Assembly (NCBI GenBank): GCA_013215375.1
Contig: JABSRB010000047.1
Location: forward strand, 1-42,615
Length of the DNA: 42,615 nucleotides
Direction: 5' to 3'
DNA from: Oceanospirillaceae bacterium
GTDB lineage: Bacteria > Pseudomonadota > Gammaproteobacteria > Pseudomonadales > Balneatricaceae
Shown here: in pieces, positions 1-41,839 of the stretch
How positions within the stretch are numbered: position 1 is the first letter of the stretch
How the letters are laid out: the number at the start of each line of letters is the position of its first letter
Translations under genes and position numbers: made by a program
The notes under the pieces: model-generated
What the model saw: only the letters and a program-made list of their open reading frames with translations
Told to the model about the DNA's origin: nothing
Database searches by the model: none

Positions 1-187
1 AAGCAGAGACGGACTTCACCCCCACCCCCGTCAATACATTTGTTGCGCTCTTAGCTTAAATTTTTAAATATTGCCTCCGTGTTCTCTGTGCCCTCTGTGG
101 TGAAAAAATCTTTTAAAAACTATTCACCACAGAGAGCACAGAGGCGCTTCGCTACACAGAGAAAACCTGAGACACTTTAGCTTTGAG
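1..187. repeat. Dispersed repeat E, copy 1 (without MITE-A)
   Basis: This stretch is closely matched by 33320-33672: the same opening, the same ctctgtgccctctgtggtga segment and the same tail cgcttcgctacacagagaaa. Its middle can fold, because the ctctgtg..ggtga arm is complementary to the ttcaccacagag..cacagag arm downstream. Copy 2 carries an extra 162-bp element after TTAG, and this copy has the uninterrupted TTAG at 51-54. The repeat may extend left of the window. It lies between the map stop codon and the window edge and has no coding potential I can support. Confidence 0.85.
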
Positions 188-219
188 CTTTGAGCTTTGA
201 GCTTTGAGCTTTGAGCTTT
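181..219. repeat. Tandem repeat of 7 bp (ctttgag), about 5.6 copies
   Basis: Five perfect head-to-tail copies of ctttgag are followed by cttt. The matching position of the sister repeat (about 33664-33672) has a single unit, so the array arose by local expansion. It ends 13 bp before the map stop codon and is a candidate variable-number locus. Confidence 0.9.
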
Positions 220-1269: not shown

Positions 1270-1513
1270 TCATATGTAATTTTTGGGCTGGTGTTGTATG
1301 GTTGAGGAGTAAAGCTTCATATTAGGTAGCTAGTGTATGTGCTGATGAAAAGTCCGTTGATGACACGAAGTGGGGCTTTTTTGTTCATGGTTCACGTTTT
1401 CTAGTAAACCAATTTGGGATATCTAGCTTTAAACTAGTGGGTGTTTTTAACCTCCGAATTAGAACGCTATAGAACGTAACTGATTTATTTTTTAATGTTT
1501 AAGATCAAGGGAT
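1270..1513. other. Intergenic region without a recognised gene
   Basis: No convincing ORF was found. The only notable structure is 1348-1382, where aaaagtcc and ggggctttttt could form a weak terminator-like stem reading rightwards, although no gene runs into it from the left. It may be a remnant or the end of an unrecognised transcript. Confidence 0.4.
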
Positions 1514-1520
1514 TTTAAGT

Positions 1521-1747
1521 GCAGTTTCGACTGCGTCGAGTTCATTTCTTTTTGCGAAAAAAAGAAACCGAACCAAAGAAAATTTCGCCCTACTATTGCC
1601 GAAAACCCCTACGCAATTCAATAAATTGACGGCCGCTCAGATAGGCCATCCATGGCCTAGCTTCGCTCTTCGCGACATCCTGTCGCTGCGCCCGTCCATT
1701 TAGCGAACAGCTCCGGCGGCAATACAAGGGGGTTGATGGCTCCGTAG
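1521..1747. repeat. Dispersed repeat F, copy 1 (inverted relative to copy 2)
   Basis: It runs from gcagtttcgactgcgtcgag to ggctccgtag and matches the reverse complement of 4370-4600 over its whole length with scattered differences. Shared landmarks are the poly-T/aaa stretch with ttctttggttc, ggccgctcag, cgacatcctgtcgctgcgc and the ggcggcaatacaaggggg end. Spurious ORFs through this sequence are common in gammaproteobacterial genomes (from memory). It forms the left boundary of the 1.5-4.6 kb island. Confidence 0.85.
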
Positions 1748-1855
1748 GGAATATGGACAGACTGGTATACCTCACTATAAACCACCCATTAATACAGTGA
1801 AAACCACTCGAATTATCGGTTTTAACAGTTATTAAAAGTGAGTGTCCCATATTGG

Positions 1856-2206
1856 TCATTTCGACAACTTTTCGCCTGCAATAAAGCGCTGAATAATATC
1901 TGGGCCTTTATAAATTTTTCGCCAACGTTCTATGACTTCAAGATCTGTCAGATTATCTACTTGGCTTTTATTGATAAACAAAACAAGATGATAGTGGTTA
2001 GACATAATCGCATAGGAACAAACGTCAATACAAAAAACAGCATCAATTTCAGCTAATCGATCAAGCATCCATTGGCGGCGATGTTCAAAATTTTGCTGAG
2101 TCATTTGATCAAAACCACAAAGGAAAGCCCTTCTAACCACTCTAGATATACAGGGATAATAGGGTGAATCTTGACAGCAGAATTGCTGCGAACGGGCACG
2201 AGTCAT
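1856..2206 (-). pseudogene. REP-associated tyrosine transposase (RAYT), C-terminally truncated
   Basis: The 116-aa N-terminal part of a Y1/IS200-like REP-associated transposase. The HUH-type metal-binding motif is at residues 71-73 (NHYHLV), preceded by the family block SRVVRRAFLCG and EHRRQWMLDRL. Full members of this long subfamily have about 300 residues; here the frame stops right after GEKLSK, so the catalytic tyrosine helix is absent. The start is good (aggaggt then ATG). The truncation point is 3 bp from an atatgggacac motif (1840-1852) that also follows the truncated IS4 transposase at 4046-4058. The gene is non-functional for transposition. Confidence 0.85.
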
Positions 2207-2218
2207 AGCACCTCCTGT

Positions 2219-2236
2219 TCAGAGTAAACTCTGAAT
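2219..2236. repeat. 18-bp palindrome upstream of the RAYT gene
   Basis: Sequence ttcagagtaaactctgaa: two 8-bp arms around a 2-bp centre, just upstream of the RAYT ribosome site. Subterminal hairpins of this kind are typical recognition structures of Y1 transposases. That assignment is inference from position. Confidence 0.5.
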
Positions 2237-2329
2237 TAAATATTTCATGACATTATTCTACGCTTATCATGTCTATATTCAATTAATCTATGACTGTCCT
2301 AAATTAACCGCTTTCGATGGTTTACCCAC

Positions 2330-3271
2330 CTACTTCCTTATGCTTTTTTGTTTTAATACAGCTAGAGCCTCCATAACAAGAGGGCAGTAATTAATCTCTA
2401 TAGTTTCATGATAATTATTACAGAACATGAATGAAGTAACCTCACTTTCAATTATCCGCTTTGTTGGTGGACCAAAAAAACTCATTGCCTGTTGAAAATC
2501 ACCATTTCTAGTACTGATTGTGATTCTAAACTGATAATCCTCGCTGATTGACAGTTCCGCTACAGCAAGGGGATGAGTTATTCTAGGTAAAGCCCCTACC
2601 ATATTTTGGCTGAGGATAGTCTTTTCTTGACCTTGTTTGTCTTGGCTAACTTTAAAGATAGCTATAACCAAATCGTGGAGTGGATATGTCCCGTTATTTT
2701 TCACACCCCAATACCATTTATCCTCATCTTTCTGAAGCTTTATTTCTGGGAAGCTATTTCCGCCAGTAATCTGGTTCATCATTTCTTCGCTTGATTCTTG
2801 GATTTTATCAACCATATTCTTACTAGAGATTTCAATTTCTTTAACTGTGTTTTTGAAATCCTTTGTTAACTCGTCCCGCTCTTTTCTCTGAGCCTCTTCG
2901 CTATGCTGATGAGATAACGCGTTCAAAAATAGACCAATGAGTCCTACACCAACAATTGAATGAGTTCCTGTTAAAAGCATTGCAGGAAGGTTGGTCGGAG
3001 TGATATCCCCATACCCTAAAGTAGTAATTGTTACTGCACTAAAATACAAAAACTGGAAATACCCTTCTACTCTATCTTTCCCATTATAAAGCTCAAACAA
3101 AGGAACCCAATAAAAAGCTGCGAACAACGGTATTGATAGCAGATACCATTTACCATAATACCCAGGCAATTGTTTGGCTAATGTCTTACTACTGTTTCGG
3201 TATGGGGCAAGACCTTCAATAAATGAATTTGCGATTTTATCAACAATTTCATTCCATATTCCTTTAATCAC
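2330..3271 (-). CDS. Two-TM potassium channel (ion_trans_2 family)
   Basis: A 313-aa inner-membrane ion channel. Transmembrane helix 1 is at about residues 42-62, the pore helix with the selectivity filter TLGYGD at 84-89 (potassium signature), and helix 2 at about 96-119. The cytoplasmic part begins with a charged coiled coil (about 122-165), followed by a roughly 140-residue domain of unknown type that is not a recognisable RCK domain. The start is GTG with AAGGAG 7 bp upstream. It sits alone, more AT-rich than its surroundings, between two truncated transposase genes and inside the F-repeat bracket, which suggests an acquired cargo gene. Channel identity is secure; gating signal and role are unknown. 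Confidence 0.85.
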   Translation of the reverse strand: MIKGIWNEIVDKIANSFIEGLAPYRNSSKTLAKQLPGYYGKWYLLSIPLFAAFYWVPLFELYNGKDRVEGYFQFLYFSAVTITTLGYGDITPTNLPAMLLTGTHSIVGVGLIGLFLNALSHQHSEEAQRKERDELTKDFKNTVKEIEISSKNMVDKIQESSEEMMNQITGGNSFPEIKLQKDEDKWYWGVKNNGTYPLHDLVIAIFKVSQDKQGQEKTILSQNMVGALPRITHPLAVAELSISEDYQFRITISTRNGDFQQAMSFFGPPTKRIIESEVTSFMFCNNYHETIEINYCPLVMEALAVLKQKSIRK

Positions 3272-3621: not shown

Positions 3622-3687
3622 TAACCTCGGGGTCTACGGTAGAATTGTTGTTATCGAGACACCAATTTTCACTACCTGAGGCTAAGC

Positions 3688-4119
3688 GTGAAACATTCTA
3701 ACAGCATTTTCTGCCAACTATTAAAATTTATTCCCCGTCACTCCTTCCAAAAAGTGGTTGATCGACATAAGGGCGATCACCGAGTAAGAACTCTTTCATG
3801 CTGGGATCAATTGGTCGTCTTGCTCTTTTCTCAGCTAAATAGTCAGACTTCATTGAGAGGAATTGAAACGACCTTTAATAGCCAAAAATCTAAGCTTTAT
3901 CATTTAGGCGCCAGTCGTATCAGCCGCTCATCTCTAGCTGACGCAAACGGAAACCGGCCAGCCGCAATTTTCTCAGAAACGTTTTATTATTTGCTCGGCA
4001 AAGTACGTTCTAAACTACCCAAAGGCGATGAAAGCCAAAGAAAGAATATGGGACACCCATATATTTTACTGTGCAAAGCCTTTTATATTCAGACATTTAG
4101 CCTATTCTATCCACGGTAA
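3688..4119 (+). pseudogene. IS4-family transposase, N-terminal fragment
   Basis: The first ~115 residues match the DUF4372-type N-terminal domain of IS4-family transposases (FCQLLKFIPRHSFQKVV..., CWDQLVVLLFSQLNSQTSLRGIE..., GASRISRSSLADANGNRP). The DDE catalytic core that should follow is missing. From about 4046 the reading frame enters unrelated sequence starting atatgggacaccc and ends at 4119. The start is GTG after a weak ribosome site. A full member has 370-400 residues, so this is a dead remnant. Confidence 0.85.
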
Positions 4120-4369: not shown

Positions 4370-4600
4370 CTACGGAGCCACCAATCCCCTTGTATTGCCG
4401 CCGGAGCGATTTGCAAAATTGGCGAGTGGAGCGACAGGATGTCGCGCAAAGCGAAGTTGAGCCAGGGATGGCGCATCTGAGCGGCCGTCAATTTTGTAAA
4501 TCGCGGAGGAGCCTTACGGCAATATTGGGGCGAAATTTTTCTTTGGTTCCGTTTCTTTTTTTTCGCAAAAAAGAAATGAACTCGACGCAGTCGAAACTGC
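4370..4600. repeat. Dispersed repeat F, copy 2
   Basis: Reverse complement of the 1521-1747 repeat, opening ctacggagccacc and ending cgacgcagtcgaaactgc. The ORFs crossing it in several frames are not credible genes. With copy 1 it brackets 1748-4369 as an inverted-repeat pair. Confidence 0.85.
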
Positions 4601-4854
4601 ATTTAATCTGTTGACCTAAACCTCAAAAAACAAATCTGTTAAAGCCTTTAAGTTTTAAACAATGAGATGCTCATTAAACTCTCTTTATCGATAGACAGTC
4701 TACATTAGCGATTAAATCGAGACAAAAAAGGCTGAAATTGGCCGCTAACGGCCTCCATCAACACCTTATAACCTGGGAACCTTGTTGATTTTTAGTAATC
4801 AGCTTTAAAACTCGATTATAAGTAAACGTATAGCTCATAGCGCATAGCTCACCG

Positions 4855-6036
4855 CTAAAAGCTCCCCCTCCTTCCCCACAGCACCATGAACACTAAAACG
4901 CCAATGAGAATGGCCACAGCCACCACTGCCAACACCACTGACTGCACAGCATAAACACTGGCATACAGTGCCACTGCTAGGCCTGCAAGTGGCTGGGAGA
5001 TATTATTAAATAACACGATGAGGCCGGTGGTTTTACCAAAATCTTTAGCGGGTATTATCTGTTTGCGCAAGCTGCGTAAAAAGACATTAAACATTTTATC
5101 AAAACCGACTATGAGTAAAAATCCCAGCATGTAAACCCAGGCATTATCACTGAGTGCGGTGATTAATCCGCCAGCGCACAGCGCCACAAAACTTGTTGCC
5201 CCCAGCACAGTTAAGGTCAAAACAGTGCGGGCGATATAAAGCAAGATAAGTACGGTTGCGACAGCACCTAACGCTTGTAGCAACGCATAACTGTTTTGGC
5301 TTTGACCAAGCCCACCGGTATAAATGGCGACACTAGTGGCCAGCAATACCCCGACAATGAGATTAACCGCAAAAGCCAGCCAGATAACCGCTAGTAAGTT
5401 GGGCAACTGCAGTATGTTGAGGCCGGCTTGTTTAAGGGATTTTGTAATATTCAGTGAATCTGTGGTCAATTTACTCCAATGTGGGCGTAACTTAGATAGC
5501 CAAACATGCAGGGAGATATCGGCGCTTAAAAAAAGCACCGCCACGACCACTAACACGAATTGCCATTGACCTATAGCCAACAGCAAAGCCGCCACTAAAG
5601 GGCCTAACACGGTTGCGACTTGATCGACCATTTGTGTGTGGGCAAGTACTTTTTCAAAGCGAATGTGTTTGAATACCAGTGGCAGTATAGCCTCGCGAGC
5701 CATCATGCCCTGCGTGGTTAGCACCCCAACTACAGCGGCAACGGCTACCAGCCAATAAACACTGGGATAACAGTAATAACCTAATGAAGTAAGCAGCACA
5801 GCGAAAAAACGTGTTAGCTGGCTGCGCATTAGCAACCGATAGGGAGAATAGAAATCCGTTAATATTCCACAGATAGGAAAGGCGATAAATCTAGGCAAAG
5901 TCTCGACAAAAAAAGCAAAACCGGAAAGCGCCGCATCAGCGGTTATTTGAAAGATAACAAGGGGGACTAAAAACAACAGTATTTGATCGGCGAGTCTCGA
6001 TAAAAACAACGAGCTCATAAAGCCTACGTGTAGCAA
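4855..6036 (-). CDS. Major facilitator superfamily transporter (exporter-like)
   Basis: A 393-aa polytopic inner-membrane protein with about 10-12 predicted helices. The MFS_3/enterobactin-exporter-like layout is visible: an N-terminal SRLADQILLFLVPLVIF, a loop after helix 2 with ILTDFYSPYRLL, and the central helix pair with GPLVAALLL. The start is TTG at 6034-6036, chosen because GGAGAGG lies 8 bp upstream; an in-frame ATG 6 codons later has only a weak site. Substrate unknown. It is downstream of pgi on the same strand, separated by a strong hairpin, so probably an independent unit. Confidence 0.8.
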   Translation of the reverse strand: MLHVGFMSSLFLSRLADQILLFLVPLVIFQITADAALSGFAFFVETLPRFIAFPICGILTDFYSPYRLLMRSQLTRFFAVLLTSLGYYCYPSVYWLVAVAAVVGVLTTQGMMAREAILPLVFKHIRFEKVLAHTQMVDQVATVLGPLVAALLLAIGQWQFVLVVVAVLFLSADISLHVWLSKLRPHWSKLTTDSLNITKSLKQAGLNILQLPNLLAVIWLAFAVNLIVGVLLATSVAIYTGGLGQSQNSYALLQALGAVATVLILLYIARTVLTLTVLGATSFVALCAGGLITALSDNAWVYMLGFLLIVGFDKMFNVFLRSLRKQIIPAKDFGKTTGLIVLFNNISQPLAGLAVALYASVYAVQSVVLAVVAVAILIGVLVFMVLWGRRGSF

Positions 6037-13564: not shown

Positions 13565-13832
13565 AACGTTTATCCTTTGGATTAAATTTGCGGGGTTATC
13601 TGACCTACCAGTAAAAGCTATATCAGACGTTATCCCGATGAGAAAATTTTGGATGCGAATAATAACCAGCTATCGGTTAAAAAGCTAGTATTGCGCAAAA
13701 TTCTAGCAAAAAACAGGATCAAATCCCAACAGCATCAGCATTCATTGTTATGGCTAACTCTAAAGGAGTCGCCACAATGGCCATTTTCAATCGCTAGCTT
13801 ATTTACACTCCTGTGTCTTTGCCCCTTTCTTC
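13565..13832. other. Intergenic region with an unassigned ORF remnant
   Basis: A forward frame reads SYIRRYPDEKILDANNNQLSV (about 13612-13675) and onward to 13951, where it has run into MITE-A copy 1. The first part has protein-like composition but matches no family I know, and has no convincing start. It may be a fragment of a lost gene. Confidence 0.3.
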
Positions 13833-14002
13833 CTAGCCCGGATATTGCGTGCAATACCGTGATGATAGCGTCGCTAATTGTTTTTACAGGCTTTTTTTCG
13901 ATTGAGCACCATACTGGTGTGTCCGGTCGATTGAGAAAGAAAAGTCTGTAAAATCAAGGAGCAAGTTAGAACACGAGCTGTTGCATGCAATATTCGGGCT
14001 AG
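13833..14002. mobile_element. MITE-A copy 1 (162 bp) with CTAG target duplications
   Basis: The element occupies 13837-13998, in reverse orientation to copies 2 and 3, and is flanked by CTAG at 13833-13836 and 13999-14002. Ends are inverted repeats (cccggatattg and caatattcggg), and inside is a long imperfect hairpin around tttttacaggctttttttcgattgag. No transposase. It lies 9 bp beyond the yegD stop codon, so it could alter that transcript's 3' end. Confidence 0.9.
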
Positions 14003-27633: not shown

Positions 27634-27708
27634 GCGTTTAACATCTAACAATGAATACTGCCTATAAATTTGAAGATACTCAAAACAACAGACAGCAGTA
27701 TTCATTAT

Positions 27709-27894
27709 CCTAGATTCGGCGATTGAGCGCGAAAAAGGAGTGCAAGATATTGGTGTGCATAGGAAATTAAAAAATTTCGTGGTTACCAGGGATGAAATCT
27801 TGTTTCATCTTGATTGGTAATGAGAATATTTTCTGGTTTTCTAGGTATCTCAAGAGCTTGTGCTTACTTTCGTGATTCAACTGCCAAATTTTGG
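27709..27894. mobile_element. MITE-B copy 1 (186 bp)
   Basis: Matches the reverse complement of 41146-41308 along its length. Terminal repeats are cctagattcggcgattga and a more decayed right end tcaactgccaaattttgg. It carries about 23 bp not in copy 2, forming its own hairpin (gatgaaatcttgtttcatc). No ORF. Between a DUF1499 gene and the coiled-coil gene. Confidence 0.85.
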
Positions 27895-30093: not shown

Positions 30094-31077
30094 TTAAAAT
30101 CGCGTTTTATTACGGCTCTTCCACATATCTGATGCTTTGGTTTGCGCTGCATCAAACTCAACACACACACCTAACAATACTAATGTGGCTGCTAGCGTAC
30201 TGATAACCGCACCCTCACCATAGGCATGAGTTAATTCACCCCGCCACAGCTGTACCAAGTTTTCTACGTTTAATTCAGATTCACGTACTTCTCGCTTAGG
30301 GTAAATGCGTGGCCATTGCTGTTCCGATAATTGTTTGTTTTTGATCCAGCGAATCTCACAATTAGCATCCGGGCGTACTTCAGCCTCACCACCGTCCCCG
30401 CGAATCGTCAAGCTATTCTCCACCCCTAAAATGGCACTGGTCTGCTGATGCATCGGGGCATAAGCGGGATGAAACACGCCATCAACACTGCACTTTGATA
30501 GTAGTGGATTTAACATACGGCACAACGTATGCACTGGTGAACGCAGGCCAAAGATAGCACGCATCTGGATTATATCAGACACCTTTGGCGCCAGTGAGGC
30601 GATGCCCATGAATGCAAAGTTTTGTGAATCTAATGCCTCACTAACCTGCTGCCAATCCTCACAACTAGGTAAGTTAAACAGCGAAAGCACATCTTGGATA
30701 TAAATACGCCCTGCAGTGTGTCCACGCGCACCGTGCATGAAAACTTTATGGCCGTTTTCGGCCAGCAGCAGCGCCGTTAACAAAAACCACGGCAGCTGAC
30801 GTTTTTTTCCTGCGTAAGTAGACCAATCTAAATCGACATGTAAGTTGTCTGGCGCACTATTGCGCGCACGTACCGCTTGCACAAAGCCTGCTAACTCTTC
30901 AGGGGACTCCTCTTTCACGCGCAGCAACATTAAAAATGCGCCAAGTTGCTCCGGGCGAACAAGATCATCTAAAATCATGCCCATGGCACTTTGTGCCTCA
31001 TCTAAGGTTAAAGATCTAGACCCTTTTTTACCTTTCCCTAAGATTCTCACATATTGAGCAAACGGATGTTCCTGCAC
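30094..31077 (-). CDS. ybiB: YbiB/TrpD2-family glycosyltransferase-fold protein
   Basis: A 327-aa relative of anthranilate phosphoribosyltransferase. The N-terminal helical domain has GKGKKGSRSLTLDEAQSAMGMIL, and the nucleoside-phosphorylase-like core is present, but the diphosphate-binding GTGGD-like motif of true TrpD is absent. E. coli YbiB binds nucleic acids and is LexA-controlled (from memory), so a tryptophan-synthesis role is unlikely. Start GTG with AGGTG just upstream. Divergent from rlmD. Confidence 0.85.
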   Translation of the reverse strand: MQEHPFAQYVRILGKGKKGSRSLTLDEAQSAMGMILDDLVRPEQLGAFLMLLRVKEESPEELAGFVQAVRARNSAPDNLHVDLDWSTYAGKKRQLPWFLLTALLLAENGHKVFMHGARGHTAGRIYIQDVLSLFNLPSCEDWQQVSEALDSQNFAFMGIASLAPKVSDIIQMRAIFGLRSPVHTLCRMLNPLLSKCSVDGVFHPAYAPMHQQTSAILGVENSLTIRGDGGEAEVRPDANCEIRWIKNKQLSEQQWPRIYPKREVRESELNVENLVQLWRGELTHAYGEGAVISTLAATLVLLGVCVEFDAAQTKASDMWKSRNKTRF

Positions 31078-31191
31078 ACTGGCACCTACTGTCGATAAAA
31101 TCAGCGCCTATGATAAGCAGCTGATAATACGAAAGCAATTATTCAATCCAATACATTGACTCAGGCAATAACATTATTGGCCAGGAGTAGG

Positions 31192-31197
31192 TATAAT
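31192..31197 (+). promoter_or_regulatory. -10 hexamer TATAAT upstream of rlmD
   Basis: A perfect TATAAT preceded by gg, 79 bp before the rlmD start codon. No good -35 is seen at 17 bp. The next 12 bases (cctaaattcggc) equal the end of MITE-B. Confidence 0.45.
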
Positions 31198-31275
31198 CCT
31201 AAATTCGGCCGTAACTAACAGAGATTAGTACTCAGCCCAGCAATTTTTCAGACAAGACCACACAGGCAACACTTC

Positions 31276-32676
31276 ATGTCACGTAATAAGATTCAATATG
31301 GCCGCCCAAAAAAAGCCAAGCAAACTCCCTCACAATTTAACATCACCATTGACAACCTCTCACTTGAAGGGCGTGGTGTTGCTCGTAATAAGGGTAAAAC
31401 CGTGTTTGTCGAGGGCGCGATCCCCGGTGAAATGCTCACCGTTAAGATAGAAAAACAGCACAAACATTATGATGAGGCGAGCATCGTTGCCATAAACACC
31501 GCATCAGAACATCGAATAAGCCCACAATGTGAGCATTACAATGACTGCGGTGGCTGCCAGTTACAGCACATCGAAACCGATGCCCAGCTAAACTTCAAGC
31601 AACAAGCGGTACTCTCTTTACTGGCACGCGGCGCTAAGATTACACCAACTAAAATCGATACTCCACTGAGCTCTAGTGGCTTTCACTATCGACGCAGTGC
31701 CCGTATCGGCGTTAACTTTATTACGCAAACACAAACCGCCATTGTTGGCTTTAGACGCAGCAACAGTAATCAATTACTGCAAGTATCAAACTGCATGGTA
31801 CTGCCTGAGTATTTATCAGGGCTGTTCGATCAGTTGCGCAACACTTTAGAGAACATAGAAAACGCTAAAACCATTACCCATGTGGAATATTTACAAGGGG
31901 ATACCACCGGCGCACTGACCTTTCGCGCCATGAGCAAACTCAGCACGCAAACTTGCGCGATGCTTGAAAAATTACTGCAAAATTTTAAGCTTCAAGGGTT
32001 TATCAGATACGATGATCAGGTAGTGCCACTGGCCAACAATCCTGGCAGCTTAGACTATAACGTCAATCAGCTTTCACTTAGCTTTAAGCCGGGTGATTTT
32101 TTACAAGTCAATGCCGCCGTTAATCAGCAGATGATTAGCCGCGCAGTACAGTGGTTAGCGTTAAACAAAAAAGATCGTATCTTAGATCTATTCTGTGGTT
32201 TAGGTAACTTTTCACTGCCTATTGCCCAGCAAGTGAAAAGTTTAACCGGTGTTGAAGGCAGCACCACCATGGTAGAGCGCGCCACCGCGAACGCTGCACA
32301 AAATAACTTGGACAACGCCCAGTTTTTCAGCGCGGACTTGAGCCAAGATATCCAAGGTAAGAGCTGGTTCACAAATAGCTACAACAAGCTCATTATCGAT
32401 CCTCCCAGAAATGGTGCCAGTGAAGTCATCAGCCAATTACTGACAGCAAATGAAGAGGGGACGAGCATTAACCCAAGCCACATTTTGTATATTGCCTGTG
32501 ACCCGAGCTCCCTAGTGCGCGATGCTAAGCTGTTGCAAACGTTAGGCTATCAAATGGACAAGTTCTCAGTGATGGATATGTTCCCTAACACCACCCACAT
32601 TGAGTCGATGGCGCTGTTTGTTAAACGCACTAAACGCCCCAAGAAAAGCAATACGCAAAAGCTGTTCGGCCATTGA
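31276..32676 (+). CDS. rlmD: 23S rRNA (uracil-1939-C5)-methyltransferase
   Basis: SAM-dependent enzyme making m5U1939 in 23S rRNA. The 466-aa product has an N-terminal TRAM RNA-binding domain (about 20-75), the 4Fe-4S ligands CEHYNDCGGCQLQH near residue 85, and a Rossmann methyltransferase domain with LDLFCGLGNFSLP, the IDPPRNGA motif and the catalytic cysteine in YIACDPSSL. Its last four bases overlap the rluA start (TTGA), so the two rRNA-modifying enzymes are translationally coupled. Confidence 0.96.
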   Translation: MSRNKIQYGRPKKAKQTPSQFNITIDNLSLEGRGVARNKGKTVFVEGAIPGEMLTVKIEKQHKHYDEASIVAINTASEHRISPQCEHYNDCGGCQLQHIETDAQLNFKQQAVLSLLARGAKITPTKIDTPLSSSGFHYRRSARIGVNFITQTQTAIVGFRRSNSNQLLQVSNCMVLPEYLSGLFDQLRNTLENIENAKTITHVEYLQGDTTGALTFRAMSKLSTQTCAMLEKLLQNFKLQGFIRYDDQVVPLANNPGSLDYNVNQLSLSFKPGDFLQVNAAVNQQMISRAVQWLALNKKDRILDLFCGLGNFSLPIAQQVKSLTGVEGSTTMVERATANAAQNNLDNAQFFSADLSQDIQGKSWFTNSYNKLIIDPPRNGASEVISQLLTANEEGTSINPSHILYIACDPSSLVRDAKLLQTLGYQMDKFSVMDMFPNTTHIESMALFVKRTKRPKKSNTQKLFGH

Positions 32677-33296
32677 TTAATATCATCTTCCAAGATGCTG
32701 ATTTGATCATTGTTGAAAAGCCTCACGATGTATTATCAGTGCCCGGTAAAGGCCCCGAAAAACAAGACTGTTTAATCAGCAGGCTTGTTGAACAGGGCTT
32801 TCCCTCTGCCTTGATAGTGCATCGCTTAGATTTTGCCACCTCTGGGCTGATGGTCGTCGCGCTCAACAAAGCGATGCACAAAGCCTTGAGCATGTTATTC
32901 CAAAATCGTCAGATAAGTAAAAGGTACCACGCACTGCTCGGTGGCATCCCCACCACCGATAGCGGAGCGGTTCATCAACCGCTGCGCTGTGACTGGGAGA
33001 ATCGCCCGCTGCAAATCGTTGACTATCAATGGGGCAAGAAAGCCCTGACGCACTGGCAGATACTGCAGCGCTTTGAGGATTATGTAAGCGTACTATTGAG
33101 CCCTGAAACAGGGCGTTCTCATCAATTGCGGGTGCACATGCAGTGGCTGGGACACTCAATACTCGGGGATAGGTTTTATGCCCAAGGCGCTGCTTTAGCT
33201 AAATCTAACCGGCTTTGTTTGCACGCATCCCATTTAGGATTTATCCACCCAGGCACTGGTCAGCCATTAAATTTTGATTCAGCCAGCCCTTTTTAA
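32673..33296 (+). CDS. rluA: RluA-family RNA pseudouridine synthase
   Basis: Converts uridine to pseudouridine in RNA; RluA itself acts on 23S U746 and tRNA U32. The 207-aa product has no S4 domain, as for RluA. Catalytic motif HRLDFATSG near residue 50, then RYHALLGG and ETGRSHQLRVHMQWLGHSILGDRFY. Start TTG overlaps the rlmD stop in TTGA. Specificity inferred from size and motifs. Confidence 0.88.
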   Translation: MINIIFQDADLIIVEKPHDVLSVPGKGPEKQDCLISRLVEQGFPSALIVHRLDFATSGLMVVALNKAMHKALSMLFQNRQISKRYHALLGGIPTTDSGAVHQPLRCDWENRPLQIVDYQWGKKALTHWQILQRFEDYVSVLLSPETGRSHQLRVHMQWLGHSILGDRFYAQGAALAKSNRLCLHASHLGFIHPGTGQPLNFDSASPF

Positions 33297-33298
33297 AA

Positions 33299-33313
33299 TG
33301 AGAATGATTAGCT
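33299..33313. promoter_or_regulatory. Orphan Fur-box-like sequence
   Basis: tgagaatgattagct matches 11 of 14 informative positions of the 7-1-7 Fur consensus TGATAATNATTATCA. It starts 2 bp after the rluA stop codon and is followed by repeat E copy 2, with no iron gene next to it. A remnant of a lost promoter is possible, as is chance. Confidence 0.3.
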
Positions 33314-33319
33314 GTGAGC

Positions 33320-33672
33320 AAGCAGAGACTGATTTCACCCCCACCCTCCGTCAATACATTTGTTGTTCTCTTAGCCCGAATATTGCACCCAATTGCTCGT
33401 GCCCTAGCTTGCTCCTTGTTTTTACAGACTTTTCTTTCTCAATCAACCGGACGTACCAGTCCGGCGCTCAATCGAAAAAAAGCCCGTAAAAACAACTAGC
33501 GGCGCTATCATCACGGCATTGCATGCAATATCCGGCTTAGATTAATTTTTTAAATCTTACCTCCGTGTTCTCTGTGCCCTCTGTGGTGAAAAAATCTTTT
33601 AAAGACTTCTACCACCGAGGGCACAGAGGCGCTTCGCTACACAGAGAAAACCTAAGACACTTTAGCTTTGAG
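33320..33672. repeat. Dispersed repeat E, copy 2 (interrupted by MITE-A)
   Basis: Same sequence as 1-187, but with the 162-bp MITE-A and a second TTAG inserted at the TTAG target. The two flanks rejoin into the copy-1 sequence. It contains the accaccgagg..cacagaggcgcttcgctacaca segment and one ctttgag unit. It fills the gap between rluA and the LysE gene. Confidence 0.88.
33371..33540. mobile_element. MITE-A copy 2 (162 bp) with TTAG target duplications
   Basis: Element 33375-33536, flanked by TTAG at 33371-33374 and 33537-33540. Ends cccgaatattgca and tgcaatatccggc are inverted repeats; inside is an imperfect hairpin (gtttttacagacttttctttc pairing with gaaaaaaagcccgtaaaaac). The uninserted relative of its target is at 45-75 in the window. 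Confidence 0.93.
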
Positions 33673-33693
33673 TCCAAAGCTCGTCACTTATCC

Positions 33694-34314
33694 CTACTGC
33701 TTAGCGACCAACGCCCAGACTCCCGCAGTCGACATTAGGGATCCGCCACAGAGATTAAAAATGCGCTGCGCTTTGCCAGATGACAAAAGTTGTCGCGCCC
33801 TACCGGCAAACACTGCATAGAGGGTGGCATTTAACGCCGCTAAGGCTACAAACGTGACCGACAATACCCACAACTGGGCGCTGACATCACCTTGGGTATT
33901 AATGAATTGCGGTAAAAAAGCCACGAAGAAGATAATGCCTTTAGGATTTAAAGCCGTTACTAGATAAGTATTAACAAATAACTTCAAGCTTGATGCCGCA
34001 GGTTTATTCGCCTCTATAGTAGGCGCTTTAACCCCCGCCATGAGTAATTTAACGCCTAAATAAAGCAGGTACAATCCCCCTGCCCATTTCACTACTTGGA
34101 ACCAAAATACCGACTCCTCTAATAAAGCCCCCAAGCCCACCAACGAGAGCGCCAACGCCGTTGAATCCCCTAGCGCTACTGCTAACACTAGCGGTATTTT
34201 GGCTTTCAGTCCGTGTGACATTGAGTAACTTATCACGGTGAGAATAGTCGGACCCGGTATGATCAATAACACTATCGATGCCAAGCTAAACGCTAGCCAA
34301 ATTTCAATACTCAT
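33694..34314 (-). CDS. LysE/RhtB-family amino-acid exporter
   Basis: A 206-aa inner-membrane exporter with about six helices. Family signature PGPTILTVISYSMSHGLKAKIPLVLAVALGDS at residues 20-52, LKLFVNTYLVTALNPKGIIFFVAFLPQFI in the middle. Exports amino acids or homoserine-type compounds; exact substrate unknown. The ribosome site ggag precedes ATG. Monocistronic. Confidence 0.9.
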   Translation of the reverse strand: MSIEIWLAFSLASIVLLIIPGPTILTVISYSMSHGLKAKIPLVLAVALGDSTALALSLVGLGALLEESVFWFQVVKWAGGLYLLYLGVKLLMAGVKAPTIEANKPAASSLKLFVNTYLVTALNPKGIIFFVAFLPQFINTQGDVSAQLWVLSVTFVALAALNATLYAVFAGRARQLLSSGKAQRIFNLCGGSLMSTAGVWALVAKQ

Positions 34315-34378
34315 ATTTTCTCCAAAAATTATTGATATACAGTGATAAACGGTCCACTGGATCTAAAACTATCATGCT

Positions 34379-34849
34379 TTAATTTATAAACTCAGCAGCG
34401 CCATATTGGCTAACGACTTTAATACCGTGTTTTTCCAAGATGGCACAAGTAACGCCCTGGCCCTTTATTTTATCACCCGCAAATTTACCATTATAAATAG
34501 TGCCACTACCACAAGAAGGGCTAGATTCGGTTAATATTGCCCGCTTGATGTTATTCTCCTGACATATTTGTAACGCCAACTGCGCACCTTTAATAAACGG
34601 TGCTGTTACATCAGAGCCATCTTTCCCCATAATTTTCGCCTTGCCCTCTAATACATCGCTCCCGACACCGCCACAAATCTCTGCTGCAATACGTGGTGTC
34701 GACAATCCTCCTGCTACTTCCGGGCAAAAAGAGATGATCTCATGCGCTGCTATAACCTTTGTAAATGCATCATTATCGACAGGCAAATCATTGCCATCGT
34801 AGCGTACTTTACAGCCAAGCAAACAGGCACTAACCAATATTTTTGACAT
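34379..34849 (-). CDS. DUF523-family protein
   Basis: A 156-aa cysteine-rich cytoplasmic protein: MSKILVSACLLGCKVRYDG at the start, FCPEVAGGLSTPR, and ESSPSCGSGTIYNGKF, the conserved cysteine blocks of DUF523. Function unknown; the cysteines suggest a metal or redox role. Divergent from the iron ABC operon. Confidence 0.85.
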   Translation of the reverse strand: MSKILVSACLLGCKVRYDGNDLPVDNDAFTKVIAAHEIISFCPEVAGGLSTPRIAAEICGGVGSDVLEGKAKIMGKDGSDVTAPFIKGAQLALQICQENNIKRAILTESSPSCGSGTIYNGKFAGDKIKGQGVTCAILEKHGIKVVSQYGAAEFIN

Positions 34850-34978
34850 GATATTCTAAAAACTCAAGATAAAAAACACTGCCAAATTTTACCATTGTGC
34901 CCGAAAAAACATAGCTTAAGCACAACCTAACGACACTAAAAATAGCCAGATAAACCACCATATTTTTATGAATATAAA

Positions 34979-35015
34979 TGATAATGGTTTTGATTTAGAT
35001 TTACTAAGTTATACT
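34979..35015 (+). promoter_or_regulatory. Fur-box-like site and promoter of the iron-type ABC operon
   Basis: tgataatggttttga (34979-34993) fits 11 of 14 positions of the 7-1-7 Fur consensus and overlaps a TTTTGA -35; TATACT follows after 16 bp at 35010-35015. Iron-responsive repression is the likely meaning, since a FecB-like binding-protein gene follows. Confidence 0.55.
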
Positions 35016-35060
35016 TCTATTGTATCATCCAGTTTTCTCACGCAACTTAAGGAAACTAAA

Positions 35061-36200
35061 GTGTTTAATCTCAAGCTAACTAGCGTTAAAAACATTATCG
35101 CCCCTGTGCTCCTAGGATTATCCTGCCAGCTGTCCGCTGCTATTATAGAAGTCACTGATATCGCGGGACGCCAGGTAAATATTGACCCTGATAAAATCAA
35201 GCACATTGTACTGGGCGAAGGTCGATTGACCTACACCTTAGCGCTGTTGGATAAAAAGAATCCACTGGGCAGAGTAGTCGGCTGGAAAGACGATTTAATC
35301 AAATACGATCCTGATGCCTATCGTAAATATTTAGCGGCATTTCCTGAAATCAAAAACATCGAAAATTTAGGAAGCCCTTTTGGTGGAGATTTTAGCCTAG
35401 AAAAAATTATCGATTTAGACACCAATTTATTTATTCTAAATTTAGGCAATCTACTAAAGGCACAAGAGAGCGGCCTACTCACTAAACTTGATAAAGCCGG
35501 CATCAAGGTGGTCTTTGTCGATTTCCGTCAACGCCCTACGCAAAACACGGTTCCCAGCTTATTGATGTTAGGTAAAGTGCTGGGCAGAGAGAAAGAAGCG
35601 AACACCTTTATCGATTATTACGTGGCGCAAATGCGCGCAGTACGCTCTGTAGTTATCAATAAGAAGCTGGCTGATCGTCCTCTGGTCTTTATCGAAAAAG
35701 CCGCTGGATTTAATCCTGACAAATGCTGCAGTACCTTTGGCGCTGCAAACTTAGGGCGCTTAGTTGATGAAGCTGGCGGCATCAACTGGGGAAGTCGAAA
35801 GTTCCCAGGATTTTCTAGCAAGGTAAATCCAGAAGCGATCTTTAATGATGATCCCGATTTCATTATTGGCACTGGTGCCAACTGGGCCGAGGCAAAACCT
35901 AATACAGCTGCCGTTCTATTTGGTTATGAAGCGACACAAGAGTTAGCACAAGAGCGCCTTCAGGCACTGGCTAATCGCAAGGGATGGACAGAGCTAAAAT
36001 CGGTAAAAGAAAAGAACTTCTATTCTATTTACCATCAGTTCTACAACAGTCCCTACCACTTTATCGCACTGCAAGTTTTTGCTAAATGGTTCTACCCTGA
36101 AGATTTTTCAGAGCTAGATGTAGACGCTAATTTCAAAGAGCTTCACGATAAATTTCTTCCCATCGATGTTAGCGGCGTATTTTGGCAAAAGCTTAAATAG
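35061..36200 (+). CDS. Iron-siderophore/B12-type ABC transporter substrate-binding protein
   Basis: Periplasmic class III binding protein. Start set at GTG 35061-35063, which has AAGGAA upstream and gives a clean signal peptide (FNLKLTSVKNIIAPVLLGLS, cleavage near CQLSAA); a longer reading runs back through the promoter. The 379-aa product has the Peripla_BP_2 layout: ITDIAGRQV-like start, TNLFILNLGNL, VFVDFRQ, and a C-terminal lobe ending in a long helix with FAKWFYPEDF. Ligand not certain; the Fur-like site favours ferric siderophore or haem. Leads an operon with permease and ATPase. Confidence 0.88.
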   Translation: MFNLKLTSVKNIIAPVLLGLSCQLSAAIIEVTDIAGRQVNIDPDKIKHIVLGEGRLTYTLALLDKKNPLGRVVGWKDDLIKYDPDAYRKYLAAFPEIKNIENLGSPFGGDFSLEKIIDLDTNLFILNLGNLLKAQESGLLTKLDKAGIKVVFVDFRQRPTQNTVPSLLMLGKVLGREKEANTFIDYYVAQMRAVRSVVINKKLADRPLVFIEKAAGFNPDKCCSTFGAANLGRLVDEAGGINWGSRKFPGFSSKVNPEAIFNDDPDFIIGTGANWAEAKPNTAAVLFGYEATQELAQERLQALANRKGWTELKSVKEKNFYSIYHQFYNSPYHFIALQVFAKWFYPEDFSELDVDANFKELHDKFLPIDVSGVFWQKLK

Positions 36201-36207
36201 CCCCCTT

Positions 36208-36234
36208 GAGCGGATTACTGTTAGTAATCCGCTC
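36208..36234 (+). terminator. Intra-operon hairpin after the binding-protein gene
   Basis: Perfect 11-bp stem gagcggattac / gtaatccgctc with a tgtta loop, 8 bp after the stop codon. No U-tract follows, so it most likely stabilises the upstream mRNA end or attenuates the downstream genes, giving excess binding protein. Confidence 0.65.
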
Positions 36235-36298
36235 ACATCTTGACCCATATTTATTGGGTACTGTATCAATTACTAAACGCTAGGGTTTTAATAAATCG

Positions 36299-37402
36299 AT
36301 GATCAATTTAAAAGAAGTAAGCAAAGCTGATTTTGATAACGATAATACGGGGCAAGCAGTTTTTGCCAGTGCTTATCAATATCAAAAAAGAGCGTCAAAA
36401 AAGAATCAACTATTGGTCTTTATTACCTTGTTAGTCGTTTTGTGCCTGATATTGGATGTATCTATTGGCCCCTCCAACTTTCCACTGAGTACGGTATTAA
36501 CCGTATTGATGGATAAAGATGCGATGGGAGTAAAGCTCGAGGTTATTATCTGGGATTACAGGCTTCCTATTGCTGTTACAGCGGTTATTGTCGGCGCAAT
36601 GTTAGGCGTCGCAGGCGCTTTGATGCAAACCTTATTAAACAACCCACTGGCAGAACCTTTTACTTTAGGTGTGTCTTCTGCAGCAAGCTTTGGTGCAGCA
36701 TTGGCGATCGTCACAGGCATTGGTTTGGTCGGCAACATTGGCTCATTATTAGTCACCATAAACGCCTTTGTTTTTGCCTTGAGTACCTGCATGCTTTTAC
36801 TATTATTAATGCGTTTAAAAGGAATAGGCACCCAGGCGATCATTTTGTTTGGTATCGCTATCTTTTTCGCTTTTAACGCGATGTTGGCCATGATGGAATA
36901 TGGCGCTTCAGAAACTGAATTACAGCGCATCGTGTTTTGGATGCTAGGATCACTAGGTCGCGCCAGTTGGTTACAAATAGCCTGGGGCAGCACATTACTG
37001 GTGGTGGTATTACCTTTTTGCATGTCACGCACTTGGCGCCTCACAGCACTGCGCTTAGGCGAAGAAAGCGCCATGAGTATGGGCGTTAATATCCCCCGCC
37101 TGCGCATAGAAATTTTAGTTTGTATCTCTCTATTAGCGGCAACGGCAGTGGCCTTTGTCGGTACGATAGGTTTTGTAGGCTTAGTTGGCCCGCACATAGC
37201 CCGTTTATTAGTCGGCGAAGATCAACGTTATTTTATCCCGCTATCAGCGTTATTAGGCGCCTTAATGCTCAGCGTCACCTCCATTGTCAGTAAAACCATC
37301 ACTCCAGGTATTATCTATCCTATCGGCATTATTACTGCCCTAATAGGCGTGCCGGTATTTCTGGCGATTATTCTAAAGCATTCTAAGGAGCGTTCAGTAT
37401 GA
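36299..37402 (+). CDS. FecCD-family ABC transporter permease
   Basis: A 367-aa inner-membrane permease with about 9-10 helices for iron-siderophore or B12 uptake. Family blocks are WDYRLPIAVTAVIVGAMLGVAGALMQTLLNNPLAEPFTLGVSSAASFGAALAI, FWMLGSLGRASW, and the ATPase-contact FVGTIGFVGLVGPHIARLLVGEDQRYFIP. It has an N-terminal cytoplasmic extension of about 35 residues. Its stop overlaps the next gene by ATGA (4 bases). Confidence 0.93.
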   Translation: MINLKEVSKADFDNDNTGQAVFASAYQYQKRASKKNQLLVFITLLVVLCLILDVSIGPSNFPLSTVLTVLMDKDAMGVKLEVIIWDYRLPIAVTAVIVGAMLGVAGALMQTLLNNPLAEPFTLGVSSAASFGAALAIVTGIGLVGNIGSLLVTINAFVFALSTCMLLLLLMRLKGIGTQAIILFGIAIFFAFNAMLAMMEYGASETELQRIVFWMLGSLGRASWLQIAWGSTLLVVVLPFCMSRTWRLTALRLGEESAMSMGVNIPRLRIEILVCISLLAATAVAFVGTIGFVGLVGPHIARLLVGEDQRYFIPLSALLGALMLSVTSIVSKTITPGIIYPIGIITALIGVPVFLAIILKHSKERSV

Positions 37403-38178
37403 GCTTAAGTGTCAAGCAACTCACCGTCAATTACGGGACCAACACGGTATTAAACCAGCTGTGTTTTAACGACCTAAAGCCCGGTCAATTCACCGCTTTA
37501 CTGGGGCCTAACGCCGCGGGTAAGTCGACCTTATTTAAAGCTATCGCTGGATTACTCAAGATCAAAAACGGTGAAATCCACTTAAACGGCAGCGATGTGC
37601 AACGTTTTTCAAGAACGATGCGCGCCAAGCAAATTGCCTATTTGCCTCAGTCGTTTTATACCAGCTTGGCACTGTCTGTTTTTGAATCAGTATTACTCGC
37701 TTTGAAACAAGACTCGTCCTGGCGTGTCAGTGCTAAAGACACCCAGCAAGTTGCACAAATACTGACACAGCTAAACATCACCCACCTGGCAGACAAAGAT
37801 GTTAGCGAGCTCAGTGGCGGCCAAAAACAGCTAGTTGCTCTCGCGCGTATCTTGGTGATTAGCCCTAAGGTTATTCTGTTAGATGAACCCACCAGCGCAT
37901 TAGATTTACACCATCAACTGGCCATGCTGAGCCTTATTAAAGAACTGACACAAAAACGCGGCATCATCACCATCGCCGCCTTACACGATGTGAATTTAGC
38001 CGCGAAGTTTTGTGATCATTTAATCTTACTCGACAAAGGTAATATTCAAGCTCAGGGCACTCCTGCGCATGTATTAGCGATGGACCTGCTGGGTGAAACT
38101 TATAAGGTAGCGACCTCTTTGGAGTATTCAAAGCGTGGCGAGATGTATGTAGACGCTCAACTAATCGCCGCAATGTAA
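37399..38178 (+). CDS. ABC transporter ATP-binding protein (FepC/FecE-like)
   Basis: A 259-aa cytoplasmic ATPase. Walker A GPNAAGKST at 36-44, Q-loop YLPQS, signature LSGGQKQ, Walker B VILLDEPTSALD and H-loop AALHD are all intact. The ATGA overlap with the permease implies coupled translation; with 35061-36200 it forms a complete inner-membrane importer. The outer-membrane TonB-dependent receptor is not in the window. Confidence 0.95.
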   Translation: MSLSVKQLTVNYGTNTVLNQLCFNDLKPGQFTALLGPNAAGKSTLFKAIAGLLKIKNGEIHLNGSDVQRFSRTMRAKQIAYLPQSFYTSLALSVFESVLLALKQDSSWRVSAKDTQQVAQILTQLNITHLADKDVSELSGGQKQLVALARILVISPKVILLDEPTSALDLHHQLAMLSLIKELTQKRGIITIAALHDVNLAAKFCDHLILLDKGNIQAQGTPAHVLAMDLLGETYKVATSLEYSKRGEMYVDAQLIAAM

Positions 38179-38203
38179 GCGTTTAATTTTCGATGACTAT
38201 ACC

Positions 38204-38231
38204 CGCTATAGATGCAAAAACATCTATAGCG
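38204..38231 (+). terminator. Terminator of the iron ABC operon
   Basis: Perfect 11-bp stem cgctatagatg / catctatagcg with a caaaaa loop, 25 bp after the ATPase stop codon, followed by an AT-rich but not U-only tail. Confidence 0.65.
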
Positions 38232-38282
38232 ATATTGATTTAAGATAACGGTGAATTGATAATTTTCACTGTTCCCTTCACT

Positions 38283-38633
38283 TTAAAACTCCGGTTTAAA
38301 GCCTCTGCGAATAAATGCTTGCTTGGGTTTATGTACCAGAATGGCCCGCGGTGACAGTTTTCTGGCTTCAAACTCAATACCTAATAGCTGCAAGCTGATC
38401 ATACCCGTGGTGCCATTAACTATAAAATTCAGCACATAACCTCGTCTCACCAGCCCTGCCGCCGTTAAATCCATAACATCCCAGTCAATTGTTTCACCGG
38501 TTACCCCAGTGTACGGAGCTTCATAACCGCCATCCGTTTTATCCATTGCCTTAATATCTAAAAAAAGTGCGACAGAGAATAAGATCATTGCCACAAAACC
38601 GATAAACGCAAAAACTCTTAGTACAATAATCAC
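38283..38633 (-). CDS. Hypothetical membrane-anchored protein (116 aa)
   Basis: One N-terminal transmembrane helix (about 5-26), then a soluble domain with GETIDWDVMDLTAAGLVRRGYVLNFIVNGTTGMISLQLL. No family is recognised. Convergent with the ABC operon. Real-gene status is supported by its membrane segment and lack of overlapping genes, but not by homology. Confidence 0.6.
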   Translation of the reverse strand: MIIVLRVFAFIGFVAMILFSVALFLDIKAMDKTDGGYEAPYTGVTGETIDWDVMDLTAAGLVRRGYVLNFIVNGTTGMISLQLLGIEFEARKLSPRAILVHKPKQAFIRRGFKPEF

Positions 38634-38808
38634 TTAACACCCTCTTTTTAATATTTTTTCAAAATTGAAACTTCAACAGAATAATTTTTTGTGGGCATTT
38701 ATAAAGAGAATAAGGAGGAGCAAAAAGGGCAAGGCTAAAAGATCGATGACAGTCAAAGCAGTCAGTCATTGGCACGATAATCACCGATCAATTATTCTAG
38801 AAATATAT

Positions 38809-39294
38809 CTAATCAATAATATCAGCAGCATCTAATGCCGTATCAATGTTAACTGATGATTTTGGAAAAGCAGAGGGATCTGTTTCGCCATATTCGTTGG
38901 TTAAATCTCTAATATTTTTTTGCACAGTGATAACGGCAAATAGCGATAAAACAAAAGACATAGCATAGAAACCTTTTTCACTTAAAAACATATCAGCATT
39001 GACCAGACCAATCACTAACAACGCGATGGATGAGGAAAAAGCCACCCAGCACATGCCTACAAAAACTTTAGTCACCGGGAAACCCTCTTGTTTATCCCGT
39101 ACTGTCTTTTGCAGGGTGATCGCTGCAAACATCGAGAACAAAAACACCGTAAAATAATAGCCCTTCTCGTTTAGTGCTAAATCCGCGTTCCAAAGACCCA
39201 TTAAATAACCCAAAACACCGACCGCTAAAACACCCCAAGTAGCATATACATATGCTGGGGTAGGCCTGTTAAACTGATCATTACCTAATGACAT
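38809..39294 (-). CDS. yiaA: Inner membrane protein YiaA (tandem YiaA/B domains)
   Basis: Start set at ATG 39292-39294 (MSLGNDQFNRP) because AAGGAGG lies 8 bp upstream; a longer reading adds 33 residues. The 161-aa product has four helices in two repeats, each with GLWNA or GLVNA..L.EKG(Y/F)Y and LQK.VRD / VQKNIRD at its end, the YiaA/YiaB signature. Function unknown. Confidence 0.9.
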   Translation of the reverse strand: MSLGNDQFNRPTPAYVYATWGVLAVGVLGYLMGLWNADLALNEKGYYFTVFLFSMFAAITLQKTVRDKQEGFPVTKVFVGMCWVAFSSSIALLVIGLVNADMFLSEKGFYAMSFVLSLFAVITVQKNIRDLTNEYGETDPSAFPKSSVNIDTALDAADIID

Positions 39295-39558
39295 ACCTTC
39301 ATCCTCCTTAATATTAGTGAGTTTTATTCCCGCGCGGGTAGCTTTAGTCACATACCTAATAGCCGTTACATATATGCTACTGATAAAAAGCATTCATAAT
39401 CCTTTGAGTGCAGGAAAAATTAATTCTTGGTAAAGAAACCGCTGTAGAGCATAGCGAATAATCAAGCGTTACCGTATACGATTAACTCTTAAAAATAAAG
39501 CATTTACACTGCTCTTGAAACAGTCCATTACTCTTAGTCACGTGCTGTATCACAATAG

Positions 39559-39960
39559 TTAATTTTTAGGTTTATCTGTTAATTCAACGCTCTTCACTCC
39601 CTCATTAACTCCCACATGATCAGGCTCAATATATTCTGCGAATTTGACCACGTTGATTGTCTCCAAGCCAATCAGTTGGGCTTTACACACTCTGTGCATA
39701 CCATCCATCACCCTACCTTCATGACAGAGAATGATCGGATAAGATAAATCTGCTTTATTAATCAGCGCTGTGTGCTCAAGAACATTTCGACAGGTAGGTT
39801 TAGCACCTCCTAAGTCATACCAAAATTCTTCATCAAGCTCTTCAATGCTCGATAGCGCAACTTCGGTAACCGTTATATTTTGAGCTAACTTAATAAGCCT
39901 TGAAACGTCCCACATTAACAACCCTTGTACTGAATTTCTAAAGTGATATTGCTTTCTCAT
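39559..39960 (-). CDS. ParB-like-fold protein of unknown role
   Basis: A 133-aa soluble protein with LSYPIILCHEGRVMDGMHRVCKAQLIGLETINVVKF, a ParB/sulfiredoxin-type nuclease-like block where DGMHR stands in the position of the DG.HR motif. It has no helix-turn-helix, so it is not a partition ParB. Similar proteins are widespread in gammaproteobacteria as hypotheticals (from memory). Upstream of the amidohydrolase gene's 3' end, same strand. Confidence 0.7.
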   Translation of the reverse strand: MRKQYHFRNSVQGLLMWDVSRLIKLAQNITVTEVALSSIEELDEEFWYDLGGAKPTCRNVLEHTALINKADLSYPIILCHEGRVMDGMHRVCKAQLIGLETINVVKFAEYIEPDHVGVNEGVKSVELTDKPKN

Positions 39961-40026
39961 AAAACGCCTATTTTCATGTTTTCTATTTGTTCAATATTCT
40001 AACGATTTCATAGTTAACACATTAAG

Positions 40027-40791: not shown

Positions 40792-40846
40792 TTATACTGA
40801 CCTCGATATAGGCGAGAACGGGACGAAGAGGTTTGGCTTTACTTCC

Positions 40847-41539: not shown

Positions 41540-41569
41540 TTATACTCCAAAGATACTGTGTGTTCCGCT

Positions 41570-41739
41570 TTAGCCCGAAAATTGCACCCAACTGCTCGTG
41601 TCCTAGCTTGCTCCTTGTTTTTACAGGCTTTTCTTTCTCAATCAACCGGACGCACCAGTACGGCGTTCAATCGAAAAAAAGCCTGTAGAAACAACTAGCA
41701 GCGCTATCATCACGGCATTGCATGCAATATCCGGGTTAG
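41570..41739. mobile_element. MITE-A copy 3 (162 bp) with TTAG target duplications
   Basis: Element 41574-41735, flanked by TTAG at 41570-41573 and 41736-41739. Same orientation as copy 2, differing at scattered positions. It lies just upstream of the M23 gene, between its ribosome site and where its promoter should be. Confidence 0.93.
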
Positions 41740-41839
41740 AAAAAGAACAAAAGGTCATTCCCAAATTTTTAGTAGCAAACAAAGGTACCTATCACCCTAG
41801 AAACAGCAGTTTCGCCACAGCAGAAAACTAGCCTTTAGC

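Follow-up and report, generated by a model that had tools for sequence, protein, structure and literature searches.

What is the 162-bp sequence that recurs three times in the window (the whole 42,615-nt stretch of DNA analysed here), and which enzyme moves it? An earlier note, made from the sequence alone, had described three copies of this length flanked by CTAG, TTAG and TTAG repeats, and their positions were confirmed (Table 1). Copies 2 and 3 share an orientation and are 94% identical over 171 nt. Copy 1 lies the other way round, with 88% complementarity to either of them across 169-172 nt. Just one ORF of ≥100 aa, a mechanical one at 13649-13951, crosses any of the copies. We conclude that the sequence is very probably a non-autonomous, non-coding MITE with a standard length of 162 bp, moved in trans by a DDE transposase of the IS1380 family, which acts on CCCGRATATTGCA ends and a YTAR target, with a 4-bp duplication.

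Table 1. MITE copies and associated sites; positions refer to the window unless a locus is named.
Feature	Position	Strand	Remarks
MITE copy 1, subfamily A, 162 bp	13837..13998	+	95.7-100% identity with copy 1 among 8 of the 27 long copies of the genome
Left target duplication of copy 1, CTAG, 4 bp	13833..13836	+	
Right target duplication of copy 1, CTAG, 4 bp	13999..14002	+	
Left terminal inverted repeat of copy 1, CCCGGATATTGCGTGCAAT	13837..13855	+	
Right terminal inverted repeat of copy 1, CCCGAATATTGCATGCAAC	13980..13998	-	read outside-in on the minus strand
MITE copy 2, subfamily B, 162 bp	33375..33536	-	terminal base changed on one side
Left target duplication of copy 2, TTAG	33371..33374	+	
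Right target duplication of copy 2, TTAG	33537..33540	+	
MITE copy 3, subfamily B, 162 bp	41574..41735	-	
Left target duplication of copy 3, TTAG	41570..41573	+	
Right target duplication of copy 3, TTAG	41736..41739	+	
Paralogous empty site	1..190	+	homologous on both sides to the flanks of copy 2, with one TTAG where the MITE would lie
Two diverged, GC-richer MITE copies	L114 (G047) 3658-3842 and 4813-4982		about 1 kb apart, both strong hairpins

The window belongs to a 5.0 Mb draft genome in 96 contigs (G000). A search of this genome with the 162-bp sequence, as the earlier note had proposed, returned 35 matches, 27 of which are long copies; the other eight are short matches or second matches of copies already counted. 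All 27 were fitted to copy 1, after loci on the minus strand had been turned. They form two groups, subfamily A (8 copies, 95.7-100% identical to copy 1) and subfamily B (19 copies, about 73-89%). Exactly 162 bp is the length of 21 copies, the remainder measuring 152, 156, 160, 161, 163 and 164 bp. The identical length claimed from the window is thus true of the main class only, since shorter forms (70, 62, 56 and 54 bp) and 26-bp palindromes also exist. Tabulation of the flanks showed an exact 4-bp direct repeat at 15 of the 27 copies (14 YTAR and one TTTA) and none at the other 12, including one (L020) that has lost its left end. Nearly all long copies (24 of 27) overlap no ORF of ≥100 aa. 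With ≤3 mismatches, a 22-base end pattern matched the genome 44 times forward and 41 times in reverse; the backwards control gave no match. Scanned for as an exact pattern, the start of the MITE matched five stretches: four come from the marine MAG DT_74, one from the Osedax symbiont Rs1.

One copy preserves a record of its own insertion. The flanks of copy 2 are part of a repeat that is also present at window 1-190, where it lacks the MITE. When the MITE is removed and the flanks are joined via a single TTAG, they align to window 1-190 without a gap at the junction. This comparison reveals an insertion of 162 bp that duplicated a 4-bp TTAG. Given the multicopy 162-bp class, the 4-bp duplications and the paralogous empty site, the element represents a true MITE family in a genus of marine gammaproteobacteria, and the earlier reading of it as a MITE with a YTAR-type duplication is supported. 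A CACAGAG-rich repeat was noted at window 33589-33672 and 104-187; in the congeneric genome G003 this repeat occurs at dozens of dispersed places, with short runs of spaced copies in several contigs.

Orthologous empty sites were sought for window 31000-42615 and none was found in the congeneric species, whose alignments to this stretch (about 63-76% identity) fall mostly within genes and do not span the points of insertion. At the site orthologous to window 13837, the congeneric genome G004 has a strongly diverged MITE copy (L309) beside the same gene end as the subfamily A copy of G000, so that the site gives no clean empty allele; no MITE was seen at the equivalent site in G003. The G000 and G004 copies at this site may go back to a single old insertion, or else to conversion or a hot spot.

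Over its full length the element is an imperfect palindrome able to fold as a long hairpin. The alignment of the ends of the copies, together with folding against shuffled sequences, bears out the inverted-repeat ends and self-folding interior described before. Copies 1 and 3, when folded, each form a single hairpin. Copy 1 reaches -77.2 kcal/mol as RNA, compared with -38.45 (sd 4.07) for 200 dinucleotide shuffles (z -9.5), and copy 3 reaches -35.4 kcal/mol as DNA (z -6.4). For a consensus fold we excluded L020, reduced 45 copies to 39 distinct ones and dropped two incomplete ones (L111 and L097), which left 37 copies from four genomes. Their alignment has 43 consensus pairs with 96.4% of cells paired, compared with 39.5-51.1% when partners are slid by 1-3 positions. 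Two-sided changes occur at 15 of the 43 pairs against 4-8 with a slid partner, counts that are inflated by related copies. At the 23 interior pairs, 96.8% of cells are paired versus 94.8% (sd 0.26) with shuffled partners, an excess that is small in absolute terms. In the matched stretches, identity is 71-75% for the two copies in G047, which belongs to another genus. Both are still long hairpins, at -73.4 and -95.5 kcal/mol, where mononucleotide shuffles average -55.6 and -51.0. We considered whether this pair could be the ends of one longer element and rejected the idea, as no transposase-like ORF lies between them (read by eye). The persistence of the hairpin reflects either selection on the hairpin or mutual correction of its arms.

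To identify the enzyme, we searched for the ends in seven genomes of the genus and in G047. G003, which also carries the MITE, contains an IS 1719-1720 bp long; its transposase has 464 aa, and the gene is intact and present in four identical copies. The end scan recovered both ends with a TTAG or CTAG duplication in three copies. The transposase matches Pfam PF13701 (E 1.9e-140) and also the NCBIfam model for an 'IS1380 family transposase' (NF033539), for which the three IS scanned gave E values from 4.8e-114 to 5.8e-118. The G003 IS starts with CCCGCATATTGCATG and ends with CC(C/T)GCATGTTGCACC. Copy 3 (CCCGGATATTGCATG / CCCGAAAATTGCACC) has the same TG-versus-CC difference between left and right after position 13 and agrees with this IS at 16 of 18 end bases; subfamily B agrees with its left end at 12 of 13. 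Single ends that read YTARCCCGCATATTGCA are numerous among the matches listed for G003, and several of these lie at the edge of a contig. Another genome of the order contains an IS1380 element (L301) of 1574 bp with a CTAG duplication and CCCGGATATTGCACCG at both ends. Both of these ends are matched in full (13/13) by the opening 13 bases of copy 3, a subfamily B member (CCCGGATATTGCA), and at 12 of 13 bases by copy 1 (subfamily A). True IS1380 elements, one of them congeneric, therefore have ends and a target like those of the MITE.

The same ends and target recur across the order. IS1380 loci were drawn from a PF13701 survey of 77 genomes and from a search of 390 genomes of the order with an IS1380 protein, which was matched in 27 at E ≤ 1e-30. 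For the end scan we required a start with CC, inverted matches at 12 or more of 16 positions and an exact 4-bp repeat of whatever sequence, so that duplications of 5 bp or another length would escape it. Under these rules ends were found at 17 of 46 loci. The repeat is YTAR in 15 of the 17, which correspond to 14 distinct insertions in 11 genomes; the other two (AAAG and CTGG) look like chance. Three rounds of 3-base-block shuffles gave 2 hits in 138. No ends with exact 4-bp repeats were found at the other 29 loci, many of which are fragments. The ends of the elements with a YTAR repeat differ from CCCGGATATTGCA at 0-3 of 13 bases, and the 13-base tips of the MITE (CCCGGATATTGCA/G and CCCGAATATTGCA) lie within this range. 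The target agrees as well, given that YTAR makes up 14 of the 15 exact MITE duplications. Sharing between MITE and IS is confined to about 13-18 terminal bases: BLAST against 12 IS loci gave no interior similarity better than E 3, and end matches alone gave E 0.25-3. With a short end match and no interior match, the case for IS1380 rests on position and target as well. The MITE is also about a tenth as long as these IS and has no transposase gene. Its IS1380-type ends and four-base target duplication make an IS1380 rather than an IS5 enzyme the most likely mover, as judged from the sequences.

One further locus from the scan, L278 (G211), has perfect 16-bp inverted ends 1723 bp apart at 1340-3062, with a 5-bp ATGAC repeat. 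A 1574-bp IS1380 element with a CTAA duplication sits within this pair, and the 16-bp ends were therefore rejected as the ends of the IS itself. The arrangement looks as if the IS had jumped into another small palindromic element.

The MITE and IS1380 genes seldom occur in the same genome. In the 77-genome survey, in which the best 10 or fewer MITE candidates were scored per genome, MITE matches were found in seven genomes (only short weak ones in G006 and G052) and PF13701 matches in 18, 11 of them above the cut-off. Both were found just in G003 and G047, the latter with fragments, and 16 of the 70 genomes without a MITE match had a PF13701 match. The two genomes with the most MITE matches, G000 and G004, yielded no IS1380 gene in the PF13701 survey, nor did G000 in the search of the 390 genomes; both are drafts of 93-95% completeness. 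For an autonomous element in G000, we followed the 85 end-pattern matches (≤3 mismatches) through 20 fetched stretches and 10 single-ended loci, and no transposase-like ORF was seen by eye. Since the MITE's own draft genome yielded no IS1380 gene, we infer mobilisation in trans. The IS1380 partner may have been lost, overlooked in the drafts, or active only episodically after transfer.

The following course of events would account for the MITE and its short forms. An IS1380-family DDE transposase would recognise the CCCGRATATTGCA ends in trans and insert the element into YTAR (CTAG, TTAG/CTAA or TTAA), and the chemistry of the move would duplicate those 4 bp. Short TGCAAT direct repeats at the base of both arms would then let the hairpin be deleted in place, which would leave a 26-bp palindrome made of the left tip and the right tip.

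The YTAR duplication had led the earlier note to the IS5 group, a step that our results do not support, as the full-length elements that combine matching ends with a 4-bp YTAR duplication encode IS1380-family transposases. IS5-subgroup elements duplicate a YTAR target and the IS701 family a YTAG target, so the MITE resembles both in its 4-bp duplication. The YTAR duplication is not specific to IS5, because the IS1380 elements of the order do likewise. We sought IS5 elements through PF05598 (IS5/IS1182-type) with about 1.5 kb of flank, some loci being cut by contig ends. PF05598 matches are present in all eight genomes searched, but at none of the 20 loci examined was an end of this kind preceded by YTAR. 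Seven had a loose end-like match (≤2 substitutions), and at one (L118) two loose matches separated by about 2.6 kb point towards one another, their 4-mers being different. On the basis of these 20 loci we rejected the IS5 attribution. With both ends and target present in IS1380 elements, movement by a YTAR-specific IS5-type transposase is very unlikely. As the earlier note had stated for IS5, no IS5- or IS1380-type gene was recognised in the window (42 ORFs by eye, two via Pfam). The full-length IS with matching ends that it had expected in related genomes does exist, within the IS1380 family. It is also very unlikely that the element is mainly a functional hairpin, such as a transcribed RNA structure or a terminator-like one, maintained by selection and only secondarily a repeat. 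The fold retained in G047 at 71-75% identity, the two-sided changes and interior pairing, and the position of most long copies outside ORFs would fit this reading, but copying from arm to arm would likewise preserve the matching of the arms. At the gathering score, no Rfam family lies over any of the three window copies, and the exact target duplications, the empty site and the many genomic positions show insertion.

The 26-bp palindromes call for a similar weighing. With ≤3 mismatches, the palindrome CCCGRATATTGCATGCAATATYCGGG occurs nine times in G000, 20 times in G004, once in G003 and not at all in five other genomes; the backwards control gave none. It consists of the left tip abutting the right tip, between YTAR-like repeats. 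We tested the flanks of the 29 palindromes of G000 and G004; among 40 loci fetched, five contained no 26-mer at up to 6 substitutions. The paired 4-mers have 31 mismatches versus 46.6 in reshuffled pairs, and 9 are exact versus 3.5 (p 0.0016). The test is weakened by YTAR being close to a palindrome, and 3 of the 29 are exact palindromes as well. A uniform length at 29 places in two genomes, with flanks more alike than reshuffled ones, could suggest that the 26-mers are independently mobile units. We regard this as unlikely, for deletion between the TGCAAT repeats of a full element yields just such 26-mers, and ends spaced by a mere 26 bp would be difficult to pair. Both TGCAAT repeats are still present in 23 of 37 distinct full copies. 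The observed 26-mers equal the predicted deletion products in 4 of 29 cases and differ by 1-2 bases in 22, an agreement that is partly built in because the search pattern resembles the predicted product. One 26-mer (L258) is identical to the deletion product expected of copy 3. Remnants with other centres (L072 and L271) and intermediate forms of 70 bp (TTAA/TTAA), 62 bp (CTAG/CTGG), 56 bp (CTAG/TGAA) and 54 bp (TTAG/TTAG) also argue against mobile 26-mers. Unlikely as well is a broader reading, in which the back-to-back tips are themselves mobile or are an actively generated product of IS1380-type transposition; a transposase or hairpin nuclease, for example, would remove the stem and rejoin the tips as a defined end state. 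On that reading the conserved hairpin would serve the transposition pathway itself instead of being a by-product. The 26-bp palindromes are probably deletion remnants of the MITE, and the short forms are most simply explained by loss of the hairpin in place. A comparison of the flanks of the 26-bp forms with the other loci collected gave no informative match. As remnants, they would be a simple marker of the decay of hairpin MITEs.

As far as our searches show, the MITE family is new, and the kind of element is ordinary. Correia, RUP and ERIC are hairpin-forming bacterial MITEs that are likewise short, intergenic, palindromic and multicopy; the present family is probably set apart from them by its ends, partner family and host group. 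Its closest likeness is to IS1380 (NF033539, PF13701), to which family we assign it. The eukaryotic piggyBac elements may offer an analogy, with CCC-type ends and targets that include TTAA; they differ in that their target is mostly TTAA, while that of the MITE is mostly CTAG or TTAG. According to one study, piggyBac duplications are mostly TTAA and rarely TTAG or CTAA, most ends carry CCC-type motifs, and IS1380 transposases form the outgroup of the piggyBac tree (PMC10813416). The IS1380 members ISPme1 and ISEcp1 are described in another source as mobilising neighbouring DNA, including resistance genes in the case of ISEcp1 (PMC9330008). Of two further papers, one reports an IS1380 element from Pseudomonas (PMC4133298) and the other lists an IS1380 element and, separately, MITEs (PMC3542288). 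No description of an IS1380-type MITE or of a YTAR target for IS1380 was found in the titles, abstract openings and passages that made up our partial coverage of the literature. As IS1380 is the family of ISEcp1, a mobiliser of resistance genes, its ends and 4-bp target in a large bacterial order are useful to know.

The window holds other repeats as well. Two inverted copies of TwoAYGGAY (RF01731, a candidate RNA in Rfam) lie at 1579-1738 (minus strand) and 4390-4517 (plus strand). The genome has 23 matches to it at E ≤ 0.001, 14 of them above the gathering score, and 14 control genomes have none. TwoAYGGAY here resembles a mobile repeat in many copies more closely than it does a lone cis-regulatory RNA. 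Between the two copies is a pair of ORFs at 1856-2206 (minus strand) and 3688-4119 (plus strand). One contains an SNHYHLVL stretch and has no Pfam match; by eye, we take this stretch to be reminiscent of REP-associated tyrosine transposases. The other matches DUF4372 (PF14294), presumably a domain of transposases. A second inverted repeat pair was identified at 27704-27894 and 41146-41313. In G004, the copy at 41143-41315 is matched by at least eight relatives, about 165-175 bp long and 80-95% identical, and the pair is possibly another MITE family.
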